DNA of 64,000 nucleotides. It comes from Streptomyces sp. NBC_01231 (GTDB lineage: Bacteria > Actinomycetota > Actinomycetes > Streptomycetales > Streptomycetaceae). A program made the translations under genes and the position numbers. The stretch lies in NCBI GenBank assembly GCA_035999765.1, contig CP108521.1, forward strand, positions 4,030,001 to 4,094,000, read 5' to 3'. The notes beneath the pieces were generated by a model. It was not told the DNA's origin. It saw only the letters and a program-made list of their open reading frames with translations, and made no database searches. The first letter of the stretch is position 1. The number at the start of each line of letters is the position of its first letter. Positions 35,998 through 42,323 of this stretch are shown one piece after another.

Positions 35998-36246
35998 CGT
36001 TGCCTCCTTTGGGATGTGTTCTGCCGCGGTCGTTGCGGGAGTGTTGGAGTGTCAGGGTCTGCGTGCCGTCCGTCGCCCCGACCTGGGGCGAGGGGCAGTA
36101 GGGGATGAATGCCTGCGCGGCTGCGGTGAGCGCTGACTGACCGCAGCCGCGCTCGTGCGTGAGGGGGCGGTCGGTCAGGCTTCCTGAAAGGGGCACAGCG
36201 CTCGCGCATGGAGCGCTGAACGCGTCACGACCGTAGGGCGCCGGCG

Positions 36247-36327
36247 CTAGGAGCGCGAGTGAATCCGGTCCCGGAGTGACTGTGCCGACTGGTGTCCGGG
36301 TTCGTGTGGAATCCGTCGCCGCTGCAT
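36247..36327 (-). CDS. Very small basic peptide, 26 residues
   Basis: Begins MQRRRIPHEPGHQSAQSL and ends with RSRS. A strong GGAAGGAG ribosome site is 6 bases upstream. A TTGACC-type -35 element and the ATTACC repeats lie just beyond, so a promoter for this strand is likely. The peptide may be a leader ORF for the 56-residue gene downstream or a product in its own right. Confidence 0.4.
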   Translation of the reverse strand: MQRRRIPHEPGHQSAQSLRDRIHSRS

Positions 36328-36374
36328 GGTCACTCCTTCCGGATTGGCTACCGCGAGCACCTCTTTGCCTGGAC

Positions 36375-36431
36375 ATTACCGTATGCCCGAGGGTCCAGTC
36401 ACGGTCAAATTACCGTCGTACACAGGTAATT
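36375..36431. promoter_or_regulatory. ATTACC/GGTAAT repeat cluster
   Basis: AATTACC-N10-GGTAATT (36408-36431) is a perfect inverted repeat. ATTACCGT also occurs upstream at 36375-36382 as a direct repeat of the left arm. AT-rich symmetry of this kind is unusual here and lies between the small minus-strand genes and the plus-strand EACC1/caspase genes. The whole 765-base stretch 35813-36577 contains otherwise only the two small ORFs. Confidence 0.55.
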
Positions 36432-36577
36432 GACTCTGTGAACGATGCGTGAAGGGGGCGGCGCCATTCGCGTGCCCGTTGTGATCAGGAACGGCCGGAA
36501 AAGGAGGCGTTCGCGACAACCGCCGTGGCTGCCCGGAGCGGGAGGCCACACTGGCCGCCTACACACGAGGGGGCGCA

Positions 36578-37021
36578 GTGGGGACCGTGCGGATGACGTC
36601 CGGGGACGAGAGTCTGACGGGCGAGTTGGACGACTGGCTGCGTCGGGAGCCCGGGCTGCGTGGGCGGGTGCGCCGGGAGCAGTCGCCCACGCCAGGGACC
36701 TTGGGAGGCCTTCCCGAGTTGGTGATCGAGAGTGGTGTCTCGGGAGTCGCGGGGGCGCTTGCGACGGCGTTGTCCCAGTCGTTGGCCGGCTGGCTCAGGT
36801 CCCGGCGGGCCCGCCGCTCGGGATCGCCTGGCGCGACGCCCCTGACGCTCACCGCGCAGGACGGACGCAGCCTGACACTGGACGCCCGGTCCCCGATGGA
36901 CGCGGCGGAAGTCGAGCGGTTCCTGCGGGCCGCCTTGGGCAGGACCGTGCCGGCGCCGGACGCCGTGACCGCGCCCGCGAACCCGCCCGCCGCGCCGGTG
37001 GACGGCAACGGGAGCCTCTGA
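36578..37021 (+). CDS. Effector-associated constant component EACC1-like protein
   Basis: A 147-residue protein. The middle has SGVSGVAGALATALSQSLAGWL, an amphipathic or membrane-associated helix, and a basic patch (RSRRARR). After it comes TLTAQDGRSLTLDA and a C-terminal EVERFLRAALG helix, the pattern of EACC1. EACC1 proteins are the constant partners of variable effectors (caspases, trypsins and others) in actinobacterial conflict systems. The GTG start follows GAGGGGGC. The caspase gene begins 2 bases after its stop. Confidence 0.75.
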   Translation: MGTVRMTSGDESLTGELDDWLRREPGLRGRVRREQSPTPGTLGGLPELVIESGVSGVAGALATALSQSLAGWLRSRRARRSGSPGATPLTLTAQDGRSLTLDARSPMDAAEVERFLRAALGRTVPAPDAVTAPANPPAAPVDGNGSL

Positions 37022-37023
37022 CC

Positions 37024-38652
37024 GTGCGGCTGCCCGACCCCGCGCGATCGAACGCCGTGCTGATCGGTACGGGTACCTACCGGTCGCCCGACCTCCGGGA
37101 CGTGCCCGCGGTCCGGGGCAATCTCGCCGACCTCGCGGCGGCCCTCAACGACCCCGTGTTCGGGTCGTTTTCGGCCGGGCGGTGCGCGGCGGTGCCGGAT
37201 CCGGGCGACGCGCGGACGGCGTGCCGTGCGTTGCGGGACGCGGCTGACGCGGCCGAGGACACGCTCCTCGTGTACTTCGCCGGTCACGGGCTGCTCGGTG
37301 CACGGGGCGAGCTGTTCCTCGCGATGGCGGACACGGATCCGGCGGAACTGCGAGTGAGCGGGCTGGAGTACGACGTACTGCGGGAGGTGGTGTCGGAGTG
37401 CGGCGCGGACAACCGGATCGTGGTGCTCGACTGCTGCTTCAGCGGGCGGGCCGTTCCCGCTCTGGGGACGGTGCTCAGCCAGACGGCGATCGAGGGGACG
37501 TACGTGCTCGCCTCTGCCCCGCCGAACGGAGTCGCCCTCGCTCCCGACGGGGCGGCGCACACCGCGTTCACCGGAGAGTTGATCGCGCTCCTGCGGGACG
37601 GCGTGCCCGGTGGGCCGGAGTTGTTGGGCCTGGGCGAGATCTATCGCAGGCTGCTGCGGACGGCTCTGCTGCGCGGGCTTCCCCGACCGGAGTGCAGCGG
37701 CACCGGAACGGTGGATCTGCTGGCGCTGGCCCGAAACGCCGCCTCAGGCCCGACGGTTGTGGAGGTCGCCCCGGATGTCCCCACGGAAGTCTCCCCGGAG
37801 GCCCCCACGGATGTCCCCCTGGAGGCCCCGCGCACTCCGGAGGTCCCGGAAAGTCCCAGCCCCAGCCCGAGCCCCAGCCCCACAGCATCGGAGGCCGTCC
37901 TGTCAGGGGCGACCGGGGCGAAGGGGGCTACCGGGGCCTCCGAGACAGTGGTCCTCGTACCGCCCGGCGCCCCGGTCACCACGTCGCCCGGCCCGACCCC
38001 CGCGGGGCGCTCGCGGCGCCGGACTCTGGCGTCCATGGCCGCGGTCGCCGTGGCCGGCGGTGGCGTCGGCATCGGCATCACGGCGTGGAAGGTTCTGGAC
38101 CGGACGGGGGGTGGCGGCGGCAGCCACGCCGGTGGCACGGCCTCGGCCGGTACGCCGTCCGTCGGCGTGAAGGGCGCGACCACGACGGTCACCGCCACCT
38201 CCAGCACGACCGCCACCGCCACCGCCACCGATGATGCGAAGAGTGGCGATGACGGCGGCGCCGCCGGCGATCCCTCCGCGGACGGGTCCACCCCGGAGGA
38301 CGACGTTCCCTCCGAGGGCGCCACCACCGTGCAGAAAGACGCCCTCACCTGGAAAGTGATCGCCGATGCGGCGGACATCCCGGTCGGCGGCGGTCTGGTC
38401 GTCGCGGCGGAGAAGGTCGTGGTCACCCAGCCCCAACGAGGCGCGTTCCGGGCGTTCACCGCCGTCTGCACGCACCAGGGCTGCACGGTGAACGCGATCA
38501 GCGACGGGGAGATCCGGTGCCCCTGCCACGGGAGCGCCTTCGCCATCACGGACGGCTCGGTACACATCGGCCCGGCCACCGGACCGCTGGCCGCCCGCCT
38601 GATTCGGATCCGTGGAGACAGCATCGAGATCGCGGCGGACGCGGACGCATGA
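37024..38652 (+). CDS. Caspase-like protease - internal Tat/TM segment - Rieske [2Fe-2S] fusion
   Basis: A 542-residue single polypeptide. Residues 8-235 form a caspase/metacaspase domain with catalytic His88 (YFAGHG) and Cys138 in DCCFSG. A Pro/Ser linker follows (245-325). Residues 329-355 read SRRRTLASMAAVAVAGGG, a twin-arginine-like signal in the middle of the chain. A Gly/Thr/Ala linker leads to a Rieske domain (about 436-542): ligands Cys482 and His484 (CTHQGC) and Cys499 and His502 (CPCHG), with Cys487 and Cys501 as the disulfide pair. The protease would be cytoplasmic and the Fe-S domain outside. GTG 37024 is 2 bases after EACC1. Strongly supported as an uninterrupted frame. Confidence 0.88.
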   Translation: MRLPDPARSNAVLIGTGTYRSPDLRDVPAVRGNLADLAAALNDPVFGSFSAGRCAAVPDPGDARTACRALRDAADAAEDTLLVYFAGHGLLGARGELFLAMADTDPAELRVSGLEYDVLREVVSECGADNRIVVLDCCFSGRAVPALGTVLSQTAIEGTYVLASAPPNGVALAPDGAAHTAFTGELIALLRDGVPGGPELLGLGEIYRRLLRTALLRGLPRPECSGTGTVDLLALARNAASGPTVVEVAPDVPTEVSPEAPTDVPLEAPRTPEVPESPSPSPSPSPTASEAVLSGATGAKGATGASETVVLVPPGAPVTTSPGPTPAGRSRRRTLASMAAVAVAGGGVGIGITAWKVLDRTGGGGGSHAGGTASAGTPSVGVKGATTTVTATSSTTATATATDDAKSGDDGGAAGDPSADGSTPEDDVPSEGATTVQKDALTWKVIADAADIPVGGGLVVAAEKVVVTQPQRGAFRAFTAVCTHQGCTVNAISDGEIRCPCHGSAFAITDGSVHIGPATGPLAARLIRIRGDSIEIAADADA

Positions 38653-38793
38653 GGAGCGCCCGTGCCGACCTGAGCAGACGAGAGGCTCCCGGCGCAGTCC
38701 GAACCCCGAACCCCGAACTCCAAACTCCAACTTCCAGCCCTGACGCGCGTTCGCAGCTCCCGCTCCTGCCTGGGCACGCCCACCCGCCCGGCG

Positions 38794-40965
38794 TCAGGAG
38801 CTGGTCAGGATGACGAGTTGCTGGGTCGCCCGGGTCATCGCGACATAGCGGTCGACCGCTCCTTCGACGCCCGTTCCGAAGGTCTCCGGGTCGATGAGGA
38901 CGACCAGGTCGAACTCGAGGCCCTTCGACAGCTCCGGGGTCAGGGAGCGGACGCGGGACGTCGTACGGAAGGTGGGGTCGCCGATGACGCAGGCGATTCC
39001 GTCGGCGTGGGCGGCGAGCCAGGTGTCGAGGATCGAGGTCAGGTCCGACGTGGGTCCGTGGACGACGGGGACGCCGCCGCTGCGGATGGAGGTCGGGACG
39101 TTGGCGTCGGGGAGCGCGGCGCGGATGACCGGCTCCGCTTCCGTCATGATCTCCTCCGGCGTCCGGTAGTTGATGCTGAGGGAGGCCAGGTTGATGCGGT
39201 CGAAGCCGAGCCGTTCGAGGCGTTCCTGCCATGACTCCGTGAAGCCGTGCCTGGCCTGGGCGCGGTCTCCGACGATCGTGAAGCTCCGGGACGGGCAGCG
39301 CAGCAGCAGCATCTGCCATTCCGCGTCGGTCAGTTCCTGGGCCTCGTCCACGACGACGTGCGCGAACGGGCCGGCGAGCAAGTCCGGGTCGACGGTGGCC
39401 AGTTCGGACTCGTCGACCAGGCTGACCTGGGCGTCCTCGCCGCGCAGCATCCTCACCAGGCCTTCGCCGTCGTCACCGTCGGCGCCGGAGTTGGCCACGG
39501 CCTCGATCAGGTTGTCGACGACCTGCGCCATGCGCTCGCGCTGGCCGGCGATGACGGCCTGCTGGCGGCGCCTGCGCCGCGCCGCCTCCGGGTCGCCGAG
39601 CCGCTGCCGTGCCGCGTCCAGGAGCGGCAGGTCGGACACCGTCCATGCCTGCGGGTCCGCGCGCTGCAACTTCTGAACGTCGTCCCTGCTGAGCCAGGGG
39701 GCGCACATCCGCAGGTACGCGGGGACCGACCACAGGTCTCCGACCAGGTCGGCCGCTTCGAGCAGCGGCCACGCGCGGTTGAACGCCGTGAGCAACTCCC
39801 TGTTCCGCAGCAGCGACTTGCGGAGCTGGGCGGGCGGGACGTCTTCTCCGTCGTGCTTGTCGACGAGGATCGTGAGCAGTTCCTCCCAGACCTGCTCGCG
39901 TGCCTCGTTGTGCGGGGTACCGGGTTCGGCCGCGTCGAACGCCACGGCCCAGTCGTCGGCGCTCAGCGAGATGTCGGACCAGTGGGTGGTGACCGTCATG
40001 CCCTTGGTGGGCGGGTCCTCGTAGAACCGGACGGCCTTCTCGATCGCGTTCACCAGGTCCGCGGACGACTTCAGGCGGGCCACGTCCGGGGCGGCCTCGG
40101 TGGCCGCCGCGGCTCCCTCGGTGACGAGGTCCCGCAGGGTGCAGGTCTGCACGCCCTCCTCTCCGAGGCTGGGGAGGACGTCGGCGACGTAGCCCAGGTA
40201 CGGCTGGTGCGGACCGACGAACAGCACGCCGCCCCGGCGGTGACCGAGGCGCGGGTCGGAGTAGAGGAGGTAGGCGGAGCGGTGCAGGGCTACGACGGTC
40301 TTGCCCGTGCCCGGGCCGCCGTCGACGACGAGAGCGCCGCGGGATCCCGCCCGGATGATGGCGTCCTGGTCGGCCTGGATGGTGCCGAGCACGTCTCGCA
40401 TCCGGGGCGAGCGGTTACTGCCGAGGCTGGCGATGAAGGCGGACTGGTCGTCGAGTGCGGCGTGCCCGGCGAATCCGTCCGAGGTGAACACCTCGTCCCA
40501 GTAGTCGCTGATCCGGCCGCGGGTCCAGCGATACCTGCGGCGGCTGGCCAGGCCCATCGGGTTGGCGTGGGTGGCTCCGAAGAACGGCTCGGCCGCGGGG
40601 GAACGCCAGTCGAGCAGCAGCCGACGGCCCGTGCTGTCGGTGAGGCCGAGGCGTCCGACGTACACGGGCTCGGAACTGTCCGCGCCGACCATGTGTCCGA
40701 GGCACAGGTCCAGGCCGAAGCGGCGCAGGGTGCGCAGGCGACTGGTCAGACGGTGGATCTCCGTGTCCCGGTCCATCGCCTGCCGGCCCATGCCGCCGGG
40801 TGCCCTGCGTTCGGCGTCGAGGCTGGCGGTCAGCTCGGCGATCGACTCTTCGAGGCACTCCGCGATGGCCGCGAAGCGCTGCTCGTCGTCGGTGATCAGC
40901 GTGGGGTCGGCCTTGGGGGCGAGGCGGTCGGGAAGGTCGAACGCGCTGGTGGTCAGGGGGTTCAC
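38794..40965 (-). CDS. helR: RNA polymerase recycling motor ATPase HelR (HelD family)
   Basis: A 723-residue SF1-type ATPase. An N-terminal coiled-coil (about 25-85, ECLEESIAELTASLDAERR) is followed by LLDWRSPAAEPFF, Walker A GGPGTGKT (216-223), Walker B VVVDEAQE and the C-terminal 2A domain ending VDRYVAMTRATQQLVIL. HelD-family proteins displace stalled RNA polymerase from DNA. HelR also dislodges rifamycin from the polymerase and gives tolerance. The GTG start at 40965 follows CGGAG. It lies 116 bases downstream of an rgt-type gene on the same strand, which strengthens the rifamycin link. Confidence 0.88.
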   Translation of the reverse strand: MNPLTTSAFDLPDRLAPKADPTLITDDEQRFAAIAECLEESIAELTASLDAERRAPGGMGRQAMDRDTEIHRLTSRLRTLRRFGLDLCLGHMVGADSSEPVYVGRLGLTDSTGRRLLLDWRSPAAEPFFGATHANPMGLASRRRYRWTRGRISDYWDEVFTSDGFAGHAALDDQSAFIASLGSNRSPRMRDVLGTIQADQDAIIRAGSRGALVVDGGPGTGKTVVALHRSAYLLYSDPRLGHRRGGVLFVGPHQPYLGYVADVLPSLGEEGVQTCTLRDLVTEGAAAATEAAPDVARLKSSADLVNAIEKAVRFYEDPPTKGMTVTTHWSDISLSADDWAVAFDAAEPGTPHNEAREQVWEELLTILVDKHDGEDVPPAQLRKSLLRNRELLTAFNRAWPLLEAADLVGDLWSVPAYLRMCAPWLSRDDVQKLQRADPQAWTVSDLPLLDAARQRLGDPEAARRRRRQQAVIAGQRERMAQVVDNLIEAVANSGADGDDGEGLVRMLRGEDAQVSLVDESELATVDPDLLAGPFAHVVVDEAQELTDAEWQMLLLRCPSRSFTIVGDRAQARHGFTESWQERLERLGFDRINLASLSINYRTPEEIMTEAEPVIRAALPDANVPTSIRSGGVPVVHGPTSDLTSILDTWLAAHADGIACVIGDPTFRTTSRVRSLTPELSKGLEFDLVVLIDPETFGTGVEGAVDRYVAMTRATQQLVILTSS

Positions 40966-41081
40966 GTAATCGCTCCGGTAGTCCGATATGAGGTCGCTTG
41001 CGGCCGTCGCGCGCGGCACGGCGTCCGGGCCGGTGTGCCGAACCCGGGGTGTCAGGTGCCGGCTGGACGATCCCGTGCGGG

Positions 41082-42323
41082 TCACGCGGGCACGGGCGGC
41101 TTCTGTCGGCTGATCGTGTCGAGCAGCTTCGCGGCCACCGTCGCCCCGTCGGTGCGGATGGTTGCGGCCACGGCCCTCGCTCGTGCGTGGGTGTCGGGGG
41201 TCAGGGCTGTTTTGAGTGCGGCGGACAGGGAGTCGAAGGTCGGAGTCGGGCCGTCGTGGGCCACGCCGATGCCCAGGTCGGCGACCCGGCCGGCCCAGTA
41301 GGGCTGATCCACTCCCTGGGGCACCACCACCTGGGGTGCGCCGGCCCGGGTGGCCGTCGTCGTCGTGCCCGCGCCGCCGTGGTGCACGACGGCGGCCACC
41401 CGGCCGAACAGTACCTGCTGGTTGACCTCGCCGACGGCGAAGCAGTCGTCCTGCTCGTCGATCAGGGCCAGGTCCGCCCAGCCGCGGCCGACGAGGACAC
41501 GGCGGCCCTGCGCGCGGACCGCCTCCACGGCCACCTGGGCGACGTCCGCCGAAGCGTGCATGGGCATGCTGCCGAAGCCCACGTACACCGGCGGTTCGCC
41601 GGCCTCCAGGAAAGCGGCCAGCTCGGCCGGGAGCGGGCGTTCGTCGGACAGGATCCACGCGCCGGTCTGTACGACGTCGAGGTCCGGCGTCTCCTGCCAC
41701 GGGTCCAGGACCGGGTCCGTCGCCAGCCACGGATGGTCGCCGAAGGCGTAGGCGCGGACGTCGTCCACCGGGGGCAGGCCGATCGACGCCCGGTTGGTGT
41801 TGAGCGCCTCACCGAACAACGCGTTGATGTTCTCGGCGTCCAGGTCCCACAGCGTCCGGTTGTCCGTCACGTCCGGCGGGAGGGGGCGGCCCGGATACGC
41901 CAGCGGTCGGCGACGCGGTGACGGCAGGGTGAGCTGCTGCAAGGTCGCGCACACGGAGGGGATGCCCAGTTTCTCGGCCACCGACCGCGCACCGGCCACC
42001 GCCGGCAGGACGCCGGCCACCGCCACCAGCACGTCACAGCCCTCGGCCGCCGCGATGACCGCGTCCAGCTGGCCGGCGATGATCTCGGCCGCGCGCCGGG
42101 GCAGGTCCACCTGTGACGGCCGCGTCGCCGTCTTCGTCAGCGTGCGCGCCGACGGGCCGAAGGGCACCAGCGGCACTCCGACGCCGGCCAGCCGCCGCGC
42201 GAAGTCCTCGTCCGGCGGCGCGCACACCCGCACCTCTGCGCCGAGTTCCCGCAACCGCACCGCGAGTCCCACCACCGGTTCGACGTCCCCGCGCGATCCA
42301 TACGTCGACAACAACACCCGCAC
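41082..42323 (-). CDS. rgt: Glycosyltransferase, probable rifamycin-inactivating Rgt
   Basis: A 413-residue GT-B enzyme of the GT1/MGT group. It starts VRVLLSTYGSRGDVEP and has the donor-binding segment VVHHGGAGTTTTATRAGAPQVVVPQGVDQPYWA. The protein looks full-length and the acceptor domain is intact. Rgt glucosylates the ansa-chain hydroxyl of rifamycins. The assignment rests on overall similarity plus two contextual facts: a perfect rifamycin-associated element upstream and helR downstream. A macrolide or sterol acceptor remains possible. GTG 42323 follows GGGGG; an in-frame GTG at 42377 is less likely. Confidence 0.78.
   Translation of the reverse strand: MRVLLSTYGSRGDVEPVVGLAVRLRELGAEVRVCAPPDEDFARRLAGVGVPLVPFGPSARTLTKTATRPSQVDLPRRAAEIIAGQLDAVIAAAEGCDVLVAVAGVLPAVAGARSVAEKLGIPSVCATLQQLTLPSPRRRPLAYPGRPLPPDVTDNRTLWDLDAENINALFGEALNTNRASIGLPPVDDVRAYAFGDHPWLATDPVLDPWQETPDLDVVQTGAWILSDERPLPAELAAFLEAGEPPVYVGFGSMPMHASADVAQVAVEAVRAQGRRVLVGRGWADLALIDEQDDCFAVGEVNQQVLFGRVAAVVHHGGAGTTTTATRAGAPQVVVPQGVDQPYWAGRVADLGIGVAHDGPTPTFDSLSAALKTALTPDTHARARAVAATIRTDGATVAAKLLDTISRQKPPVPA

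Follow-up and report, generated by a model that had tools for sequence, protein, structure and literature searches.

The window, that is, the whole stretch of 64,000 nucleotides of the Streptomyces sp. NBC_01231 genome analysed here, carries on its forward strand a compact unit of two genes. The first codes for an EACC1 protein and lies directly 5' of a caspase gene, its stop codon being 2 nucleotides upstream of the GTG start of the latter. The second gene is a frame of 542 codons plus stop, with no stop codon near 38000. From the N- to the C-terminus, its product comprises an EACC1-type caspase, a first linker, the motif SRRRTLAS with a weakly hydrophobic helix, a second linker and a Rieske domain. 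The features are the following:

36453..36577, forward strand: leader of the two-gene unit, within the first blastn match to the second species described below (alignment A4)
36578..37021, forward strand: EACC1 gene, 147 amino acids, the constant partner (PF19953, 69.5 bits, cut-off 23.6)
37024..38652, forward strand: caspase-anchor-Rieske fusion protein, single uninterrupted open reading frame of 542 amino acids, GTG start, TGA stop
37024..37749, forward strand: caspase module, residues 1-242 (NF047832 match over 9-213, 236.6 bits, cut-off 140)
37285..37287, forward strand: codon of His88, putative catalytic histidine by homology (unchanged in all 20 caspase rows)
37435..37437, forward strand: codon of Cys138, putative catalytic cysteine by homology (unchanged in all 20 caspase rows)
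37750..38010, forward strand: linker 1, residues 243-329, Pro/Ser/Thr/Ala-rich, predicted cytoplasmic (w 0.96 for residues 243-325 against the second species)
38011..38103, forward strand: internal Tat-type signal-anchor, residues 330-360, SRRRTLASMAAVAVAGGGVGIGITAWKVLDR (w 0.36 for residues 326-360; in the register of Rieske Tat signals)
38104..38349, forward strand: linker 2, residues 361-442, Gly/Ser/Thr-rich, predicted extracytoplasmic (w 1.24; pLDDT mostly below 50)
38350..38643, forward strand: Rieske [2Fe-2S] domain, residues 443-540 (PF00355, 48.2 bits, cut-off 20.3; w 0.32)
38467..38484, forward strand: Rieske box I, CTHQGC, residues 482-487, ligands C482 and H484, disulfide cysteine C487 (24 of 24 Rieske rows)
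38518..38535, forward strand: Rieske box II, CPCHGS, residues 499-504, ligands C499 and H502, disulfide cysteine C501 (24 of 24 Rieske rows)

An earlier note on this DNA had described one uninterrupted frame, coupled to EACC1, with a caspase domain bearing His88 and Cys138, a mid-protein SRRRTLAS segment plus hydrophobic helix, and a Rieske domain with all four ligands and the disulfide pair. Our analyses bear out this description, including the placement of the residues (GHG at 87-89, DCCFSG at 136-141, SRRRTLAS at 330-337 and the two Rieske boxes as listed), and support its reading of the mid-protein segment as an internal signal of the Tat type, here a conserved anchor. The same frame is open in the upstream direction as far as an ATG at 36445; this longer start was rejected because that stretch is the EACC1 gene read in another frame. 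A relative of the whole unit occurs in Streptomyces sp. MUM 2J (locus L028), with EACC1 again directly 5' of the caspase gene and a GTG at the equivalent position, 2 nucleotides past the EACC1 stop.

The N-terminal module belongs to the family NF047832, named "caspase, EACC1-associated type", as does that of the MUM 2J protein (234.4 bits), and the generic Pfam caspase family PF00656 gives 20.0 bits, slightly below its cut-off of 21.4. Alignment A3, 42 sequences chosen by score, holds 20 caspase rows and 24 Rieske rows, with both fusions in each set; Asp136 is likewise invariant in all 20 caspase rows, Cys137 in merely 16. AlphaFold2 models the module with pLDDT mostly above 90 and a dip at residues 141-160, and a Foldseek search with this model gives the MALT1 paracaspase, caspases and metacaspase 9 as top matches; by sequence, the module matched no solved structure in the PDB at E 0.1. 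The module is predicted to be a member of the caspase fold with a putative His/Cys dyad, in which the residues needed for activity are present. Among the PADLOC defence models, the caspase gave a single weak match, to PDLC02987, "caspase" (16.5 bits, E 9e-4), and EACC1 none, which makes assignment to a known defence model doubtful. Downstream of the unit, a convergent open reading frame on the reverse strand (38794-41730) contains UvrD-helicase-like stretches and partial GajB-like PADLOC matches, the best being RTasHel at 40.4 bits.

The EACC1 protein is 71% identical to its MUM 2J counterpart (L028:5570-5995). Its AlphaFold2 model (mean pLDDT 79.5) has an alpha+beta arrangement with a 25-residue helix at residues 55-79 and strands on either side, and found no match in the PDB at E 0.001 (best E 0.029). 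The supposed transmembrane helix of EACC1 corresponds to this same strand-flanked segment. The leader, which includes a Shine-Dalgarno-like GAGGGGG before the GTG, is kept in MUM 2J, and no blastn match extends farther upstream. A search for sigma-70 promoters gave no match within 36000-39000. The leader, common to both species and devoid of such a match, may contain the promoter of the two-gene unit.

Between caspase and Rieske domain, the pLDDT of linker 1 declines along its length to below 50. The anchor helix that follows is weakly hydrophobic, with a 19-residue mean hydropathy of 1.73 (1.82 in MUM 2J), and has positive charges behind it (K356 and R360). This is the order of features of a Tat substrate, namely a twin-arginine motif, a weakly hydrophobic helix and then a folded cofactor domain, and it is conserved in MUM 2J. 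The motif stands in the same register in the window (SRRRTLASMAAVAVAGGG), in MUM 2J (SRRRALASLAAVAVGGGG) and in a stand-alone Rieske protein, L057 (NRRRALSGSAAVAVGVPILAAC). The Tat signal of the stand-alone protein contains a cysteine, as in NRRRALSGSAAVAVG, versus SRRRALASLAAVAVG in MUM 2J, and the fusion of the window has no cysteine between residues 224 and 482 and hence no lipobox cysteine; the MUM 2J fusion lacks it too. Apart from the missing lipobox cysteine, the segment is like the Tat lipoprotein signals found on other actinobacterial Rieske proteins. It is likely to form an uncleaved Tat-type anchor, with the Rieske tail probably exported across the cell membrane. Passages of PMC5449189 describe an equivalent case in the actinobacterial Rieske protein Sco2149, where a helix of low hydrophobicity follows an internal twin-arginine motif and has positive charges after it, in a Tat-dependent arrangement: the low hydrophobicity and these charges release the helix from Sec, and Tat inserts it. 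Against this topology in the fusion, AlphaFold2 formed no helix over residues 334-356 (pLDDT about 30), in a region where the alignment is covered by the two fusions only. Arginine pairs also occur near transmembrane helices of other EACC1-caspases (L004, L017, L023, L024 and L029), and part of the twin-arginine motif could be plain positive-inside charge. One of these EACC1-caspases (L017:1495-3372) has, inside the chain and ahead of WD40 repeats, a Tat-like anchor with the motif NRRGFLV; anchors of this internal kind may recur in the EACC1-caspase system.

The C-terminal domain is modelled with pLDDT mostly of 94-97 and matches solved Rieske chains by sequence (best 8hn2, E 4.5e-11). Its six cysteine and histidine residues, invariant throughout the Rieske rows of A3, would form a Rieske-type ligand set and disulfide pair within a Rieske fold. 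The earlier note had compared this domain with stand-alone Tat-exported Streptomyces Rieske proteins, and the likeness holds: the domain is 57-65% identical in 22 rows of A3 to lipoproteins of this type, described from sequence in Streptomyces and other actinobacteria, and shares with them the ligand boxes, the register of the Tat motif and its placement in the tree. In the stand-alone proteins the signal is N-terminal and accompanied by a cysteine, whereas in the fusion it is internal, after the caspase, and without cysteine. The quick Rieske tree (113 domains, 93 columns, with 55 of 110 inner branches open) groups the two fused domains as sisters (SH-aLRT 98) within a set of 26 rows (91, below the 95 mark). 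Among the other Rieske open reading frames scoring at least 90 bits, 69 of 94 have a Tat-like motif within 90 amino acids upstream and 25 of 94 have none (counts made without a shuffled control); a cysteine lies 8-30 residues past the motif, as for a lipobox, in all 69 that have the motif. Besides the two fusions, no Rieske frame has a caspase match. A simple history would be that a gene for a Tat-exported Rieske lipoprotein, including its signal, was joined to an EACC1-caspase, and that the signal stayed as an uncleaved anchor once the lipobox had been lost. QcrA was rejected as the origin of the domain, and the fusion is probably not a bc1 subunit: the score against the subunit-level QcrA family is 34.4 bits versus a cut-off of 275 (PetC, 42.2 versus 250), so that bc1/b6f membership is not indicated, and the genome's own QcrA-like protein (L008) has a different ligand box, CTHVGC..CPCHQS. 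The bc1 Rieske subunit QcrA/Sco2149 resembles the fusion in having an internal twin-arginine motif ahead of its last helix and then the Rieske domain, according to the same passages of PMC5449189, but it has three helices and differs in QcrA score and ligand box. In Nonomuraea cavernae (L036:5803-7313), three consecutive Rieske frames occur, two of them with a Tat-like motif and cysteine.

The MUM 2J locus provides the strongest evidence for the architecture. The earlier note had proposed a gene fusion, to be checked by searching other genomes for it, and one such genome was found, in which the same two genes are present and the fusion is 65% identical over its full length. An assembly or frameshift artefact was rejected because the whole architecture is present in this second species. 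At E 1e-5, blastn matches between the MUM 2J locus and the window cover 36453-37758 (79.5%) and 37979-38640 (71.3%), the flanks are not shared, and the open reading frames flanking the unit differ from those of the window. Because the matches end at the unit and the neighbouring frames differ, EACC1, fusion and leader would have moved as a unit, or their surroundings would have been exchanged. Nei-Gojobori estimates of w from this one genome pair, which carry no error bars, give 0.33 over caspase residues 1-242 and 0.365 over EACC1; the values for anchor, Rieske domain and linkers are listed above. Caspase, anchor, Rieske domain and EACC1 are thus under purifying selection while the linkers drift. 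With two known fusions, the coupling of both ends is read from a single pair of genomes.

Beyond this pair, the fusion was rare wherever we searched. In the species-level genome collection, MUM 2J was the only whole-length match among at least 69 loci, and a protein search of 41 genomes, with at most 35 candidates scored in each, found a full-length match in one, the own genome. Overlapping draws of 392, 394, 393 and 362 genomes, searched by DNA with two candidates scored per genome, yielded no third fusion, although distant ones would escape such a search; Rieske matches dominated the draw of 392, which led to Rieske-free queries for the other three, and in the draw of 362 the own genome was absent among the matches listed. 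Across 131 loci compared, only the window (L001, L116 and L118) and MUM 2J had frames matching both halves. Fifteen caspase frames among these loci are cut C-terminally at the locus edge (L004, L007, L011, L015, L016, L018, L020, L023, L024, L120-L124 and L131). Longer stretches (L126-L129) for L120, L122, L123 and L124 contain complete genes and no Rieske domain; the frame in G166 (L121/L131) runs off its contig, the C-terminus of L015 is likewise incomplete, and the remaining edge-cut frames have no Rieske match beside the caspase match in the match tables. Caspase-only DNA searches reached eight other places, of which L097, L117, L125 (also L130) and L126-L129 are complete and without Rieske, the eighth being that in G166. 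Relatives on plasmids were rejected, as 120 plasmid records matched but in none of them did a single region span 80% of the query. The caspase-Rieske fusion is real, conserved and rare, and we hold its architecture and anchor, apart from any mechanism, with high confidence.

How new is this arrangement? The main text of Kaur et al. (2020, eLife; PMC7159879) describes a "System 4" in which EACC1 is paired with a constant caspase whose C-terminal domain comes in up to 50 alternative kinds. Transmembrane helices are present in at least 33% of these caspase proteins, and a transmembrane segment with an extracellular PBP domain occupies the same slot. In that proposal, EACC1 is the sensor and autoproteolysis of the caspase deploys the C-terminal effector. 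The unit of the window agrees with System 4 in its 5' EACC1 gene, in a 3' gene that joins a constant caspase at the N-terminus to a variable C-terminal domain, in its predicted membrane association and in its actinobacterial host. It departs from System 4 by having, in the variable slot, a Rieske [2Fe-2S] domain that follows a Tat-type anchor. The statement of the earlier note that no described system has this arrangement must therefore be narrowed: EACC1, caspase and a variable C-terminal domain, at times behind a transmembrane helix, are the published System 4, whereas the choice of a Rieske domain appears new. By homology, the pair can be assigned to the EACC1-caspase two-gene conflict systems, with a Rieske domain in the variable slot, and this domain appears to be the only new element. 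The main text of PMC7159879 contains none of the terms Rieske, iron-sulfur, 2Fe-2S, ferredoxin, redox and Tat; an entry for Rieske in its supplementary domain list is possible. Among the literature matches listed, with coverage that leaves out most subscription papers, titles and abstract starts contained no caspase-Rieske fusion, and no experimental trigger for EACC1 systems was found. The EACC2-caspase systems (Kaur et al. 2021, PMC8195603) also have variable C-terminal domains, some extracellular behind transmembrane helices (CHASE2), according to their main text, from which the word Rieske is absent; they differ in that EACC2 replaces EACC1, partly together with TRADD-N genes.

Other C-termini occupy the slot among the relatives scanned, namely S1 (L009), WD40 (L017), multi-helix (L097) and unmatched tails. 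The caspases nearest by DNA (L097 in genome G397 and L117 in G671) have EACC1 upstream and a multi-helix membrane tail, with four hydrophobic segments above cut-off after the caspase in the former and six in the frame of the latter, and no Rieske domain. These tails on the nearest caspases imply an exchange of the C-terminus, in keeping with System 4. In both frames (L097:1501-3156 and L117:342-2063, reverse strand) the tail is hydrophobic, has no Pfam match and stands on a closely related caspase. The own genome contains a second EACC1-caspase near position 11041023 (L002:1480-3039), whose C-terminus weakly resembles the Eco29kI restriction endonuclease (25.6 bits, below the cut-off of 30.8).

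As an explanation of the whole, we tentatively favour a reading that may well prove wrong, in which the exported Rieske domain is the input and its redox or cluster state, or a membrane partner, gates the cytoplasmic caspase together with EACC1. By homology, the Rieske domain would fold and gain its cluster in the cytoplasm and then be exported by Tat, the uncleaved helix keeping the caspase inside, with EACC1 beside it, and the Rieske domain outside. A change in its redox or cluster state (by oxidants, by NO or metal attack, or by damage at the respiratory surface) or an altered contact with a membrane partner might then serve as the trigger. The signal could cross the membrane via the helix or through altered clustering, whereupon EACC1 would permit the caspase to act, and the caspase might cut itself or targets in the cell, leading to growth arrest or death. 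The redox sensing, redox triggering and suicide-type outcome put forward in the earlier note enter this reading as hypotheses. Against this input reading, the main text of Kaur et al. (PMC7159879) casts the C-terminal domain as effector, not as sensor. Transferred to the fusion, that published model would have EACC1 sense and the caspase cleave itself to deploy the Rieske domain as effector, for instance as a carrier at the membrane surface diverting electrons from the respiratory chain. It has behind it the general System 4 proposal, as far as the main text of PMC7159879 sets it out, and the two long unconserved linkers, which are possible cleavage sites; we nonetheless regard it as possible but rather doubtful. 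If Tat exports the Rieske domain, as the topology suggests, a cut in linker 1 would free the caspase and leave the Rieske domain anchored outside. We therefore consider an input role of the Rieske domain likelier than an effector role, since cytoplasmic self-cleavage would release the caspase and not the exported domain. Moreover, Rieske domains have, to our knowledge, no obvious toxic activity.

Other readings assign less to the Rieske domain or more to its export. Since EACC1-caspases swap their C-termini, and the nearest by DNA have multi-helix membrane tails, the domain might be a chance passenger of C-terminal shuffling, a mere anchor or a docking tail; this is unlikely, its w being on par with that of the caspase and all ligands being kept while the linkers drift. 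Were a signal peptidase to cut the chain at its internal signal, the caspase would be set free in the cytoplasm and the Rieske protein outside it. This would accord with the A-x-A triplets (AVA) in the hydrophobic stretch and with the many Rieske relatives that resemble processed lipoproteins, but these triplets lie within the hydrophobic core and not past it, and neither fusion has the lipobox cysteine, so that we consider such a cut very improbable. The internal Tat-type signal, its low hydrophobicity, the positive charges behind the helix and the missing lipobox cysteine in both fusions, along with the release from Sec and insertion by Tat described for such helices in passages of PMC5449189, would also suit a sentinel of export and cluster assembly. 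Only a healthy cell would keep the fusion at the membrane, and failure of cluster assembly, of Tat or of the membrane potential would leave newly made, unanchored caspase in the cytoplasm to fire. Unexported nascent chains exist in healthy cells as well and would have to be restrained by EACC1 or some other brake, and we think this reading improbable. Its bolder form, to which we give an equally small chance, sees conditional Tat export as the arming switch of a cell-death protease. The fusion would report cluster supply, export and membrane energy, because the Rieske domain leaves the cytoplasm only after Fe-S assembly and through Tat driven by the proton-motive force, and it would fire upon a hit by phage, antibiotic or oxidant.

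The history proposed above suggests a capture of a Tat lipoprotein as a protein domain, in which the signal becomes an anchor once the lipobox is lost. Conditional Tat export as an arming switch, if true, would amount to a new sensing principle. Should the favoured reading hold, in which the exported Rieske domain is the input, it would place a redox cofactor across the membrane from a bacterial caspase and would provide a concrete, testable input for EACC1 systems.
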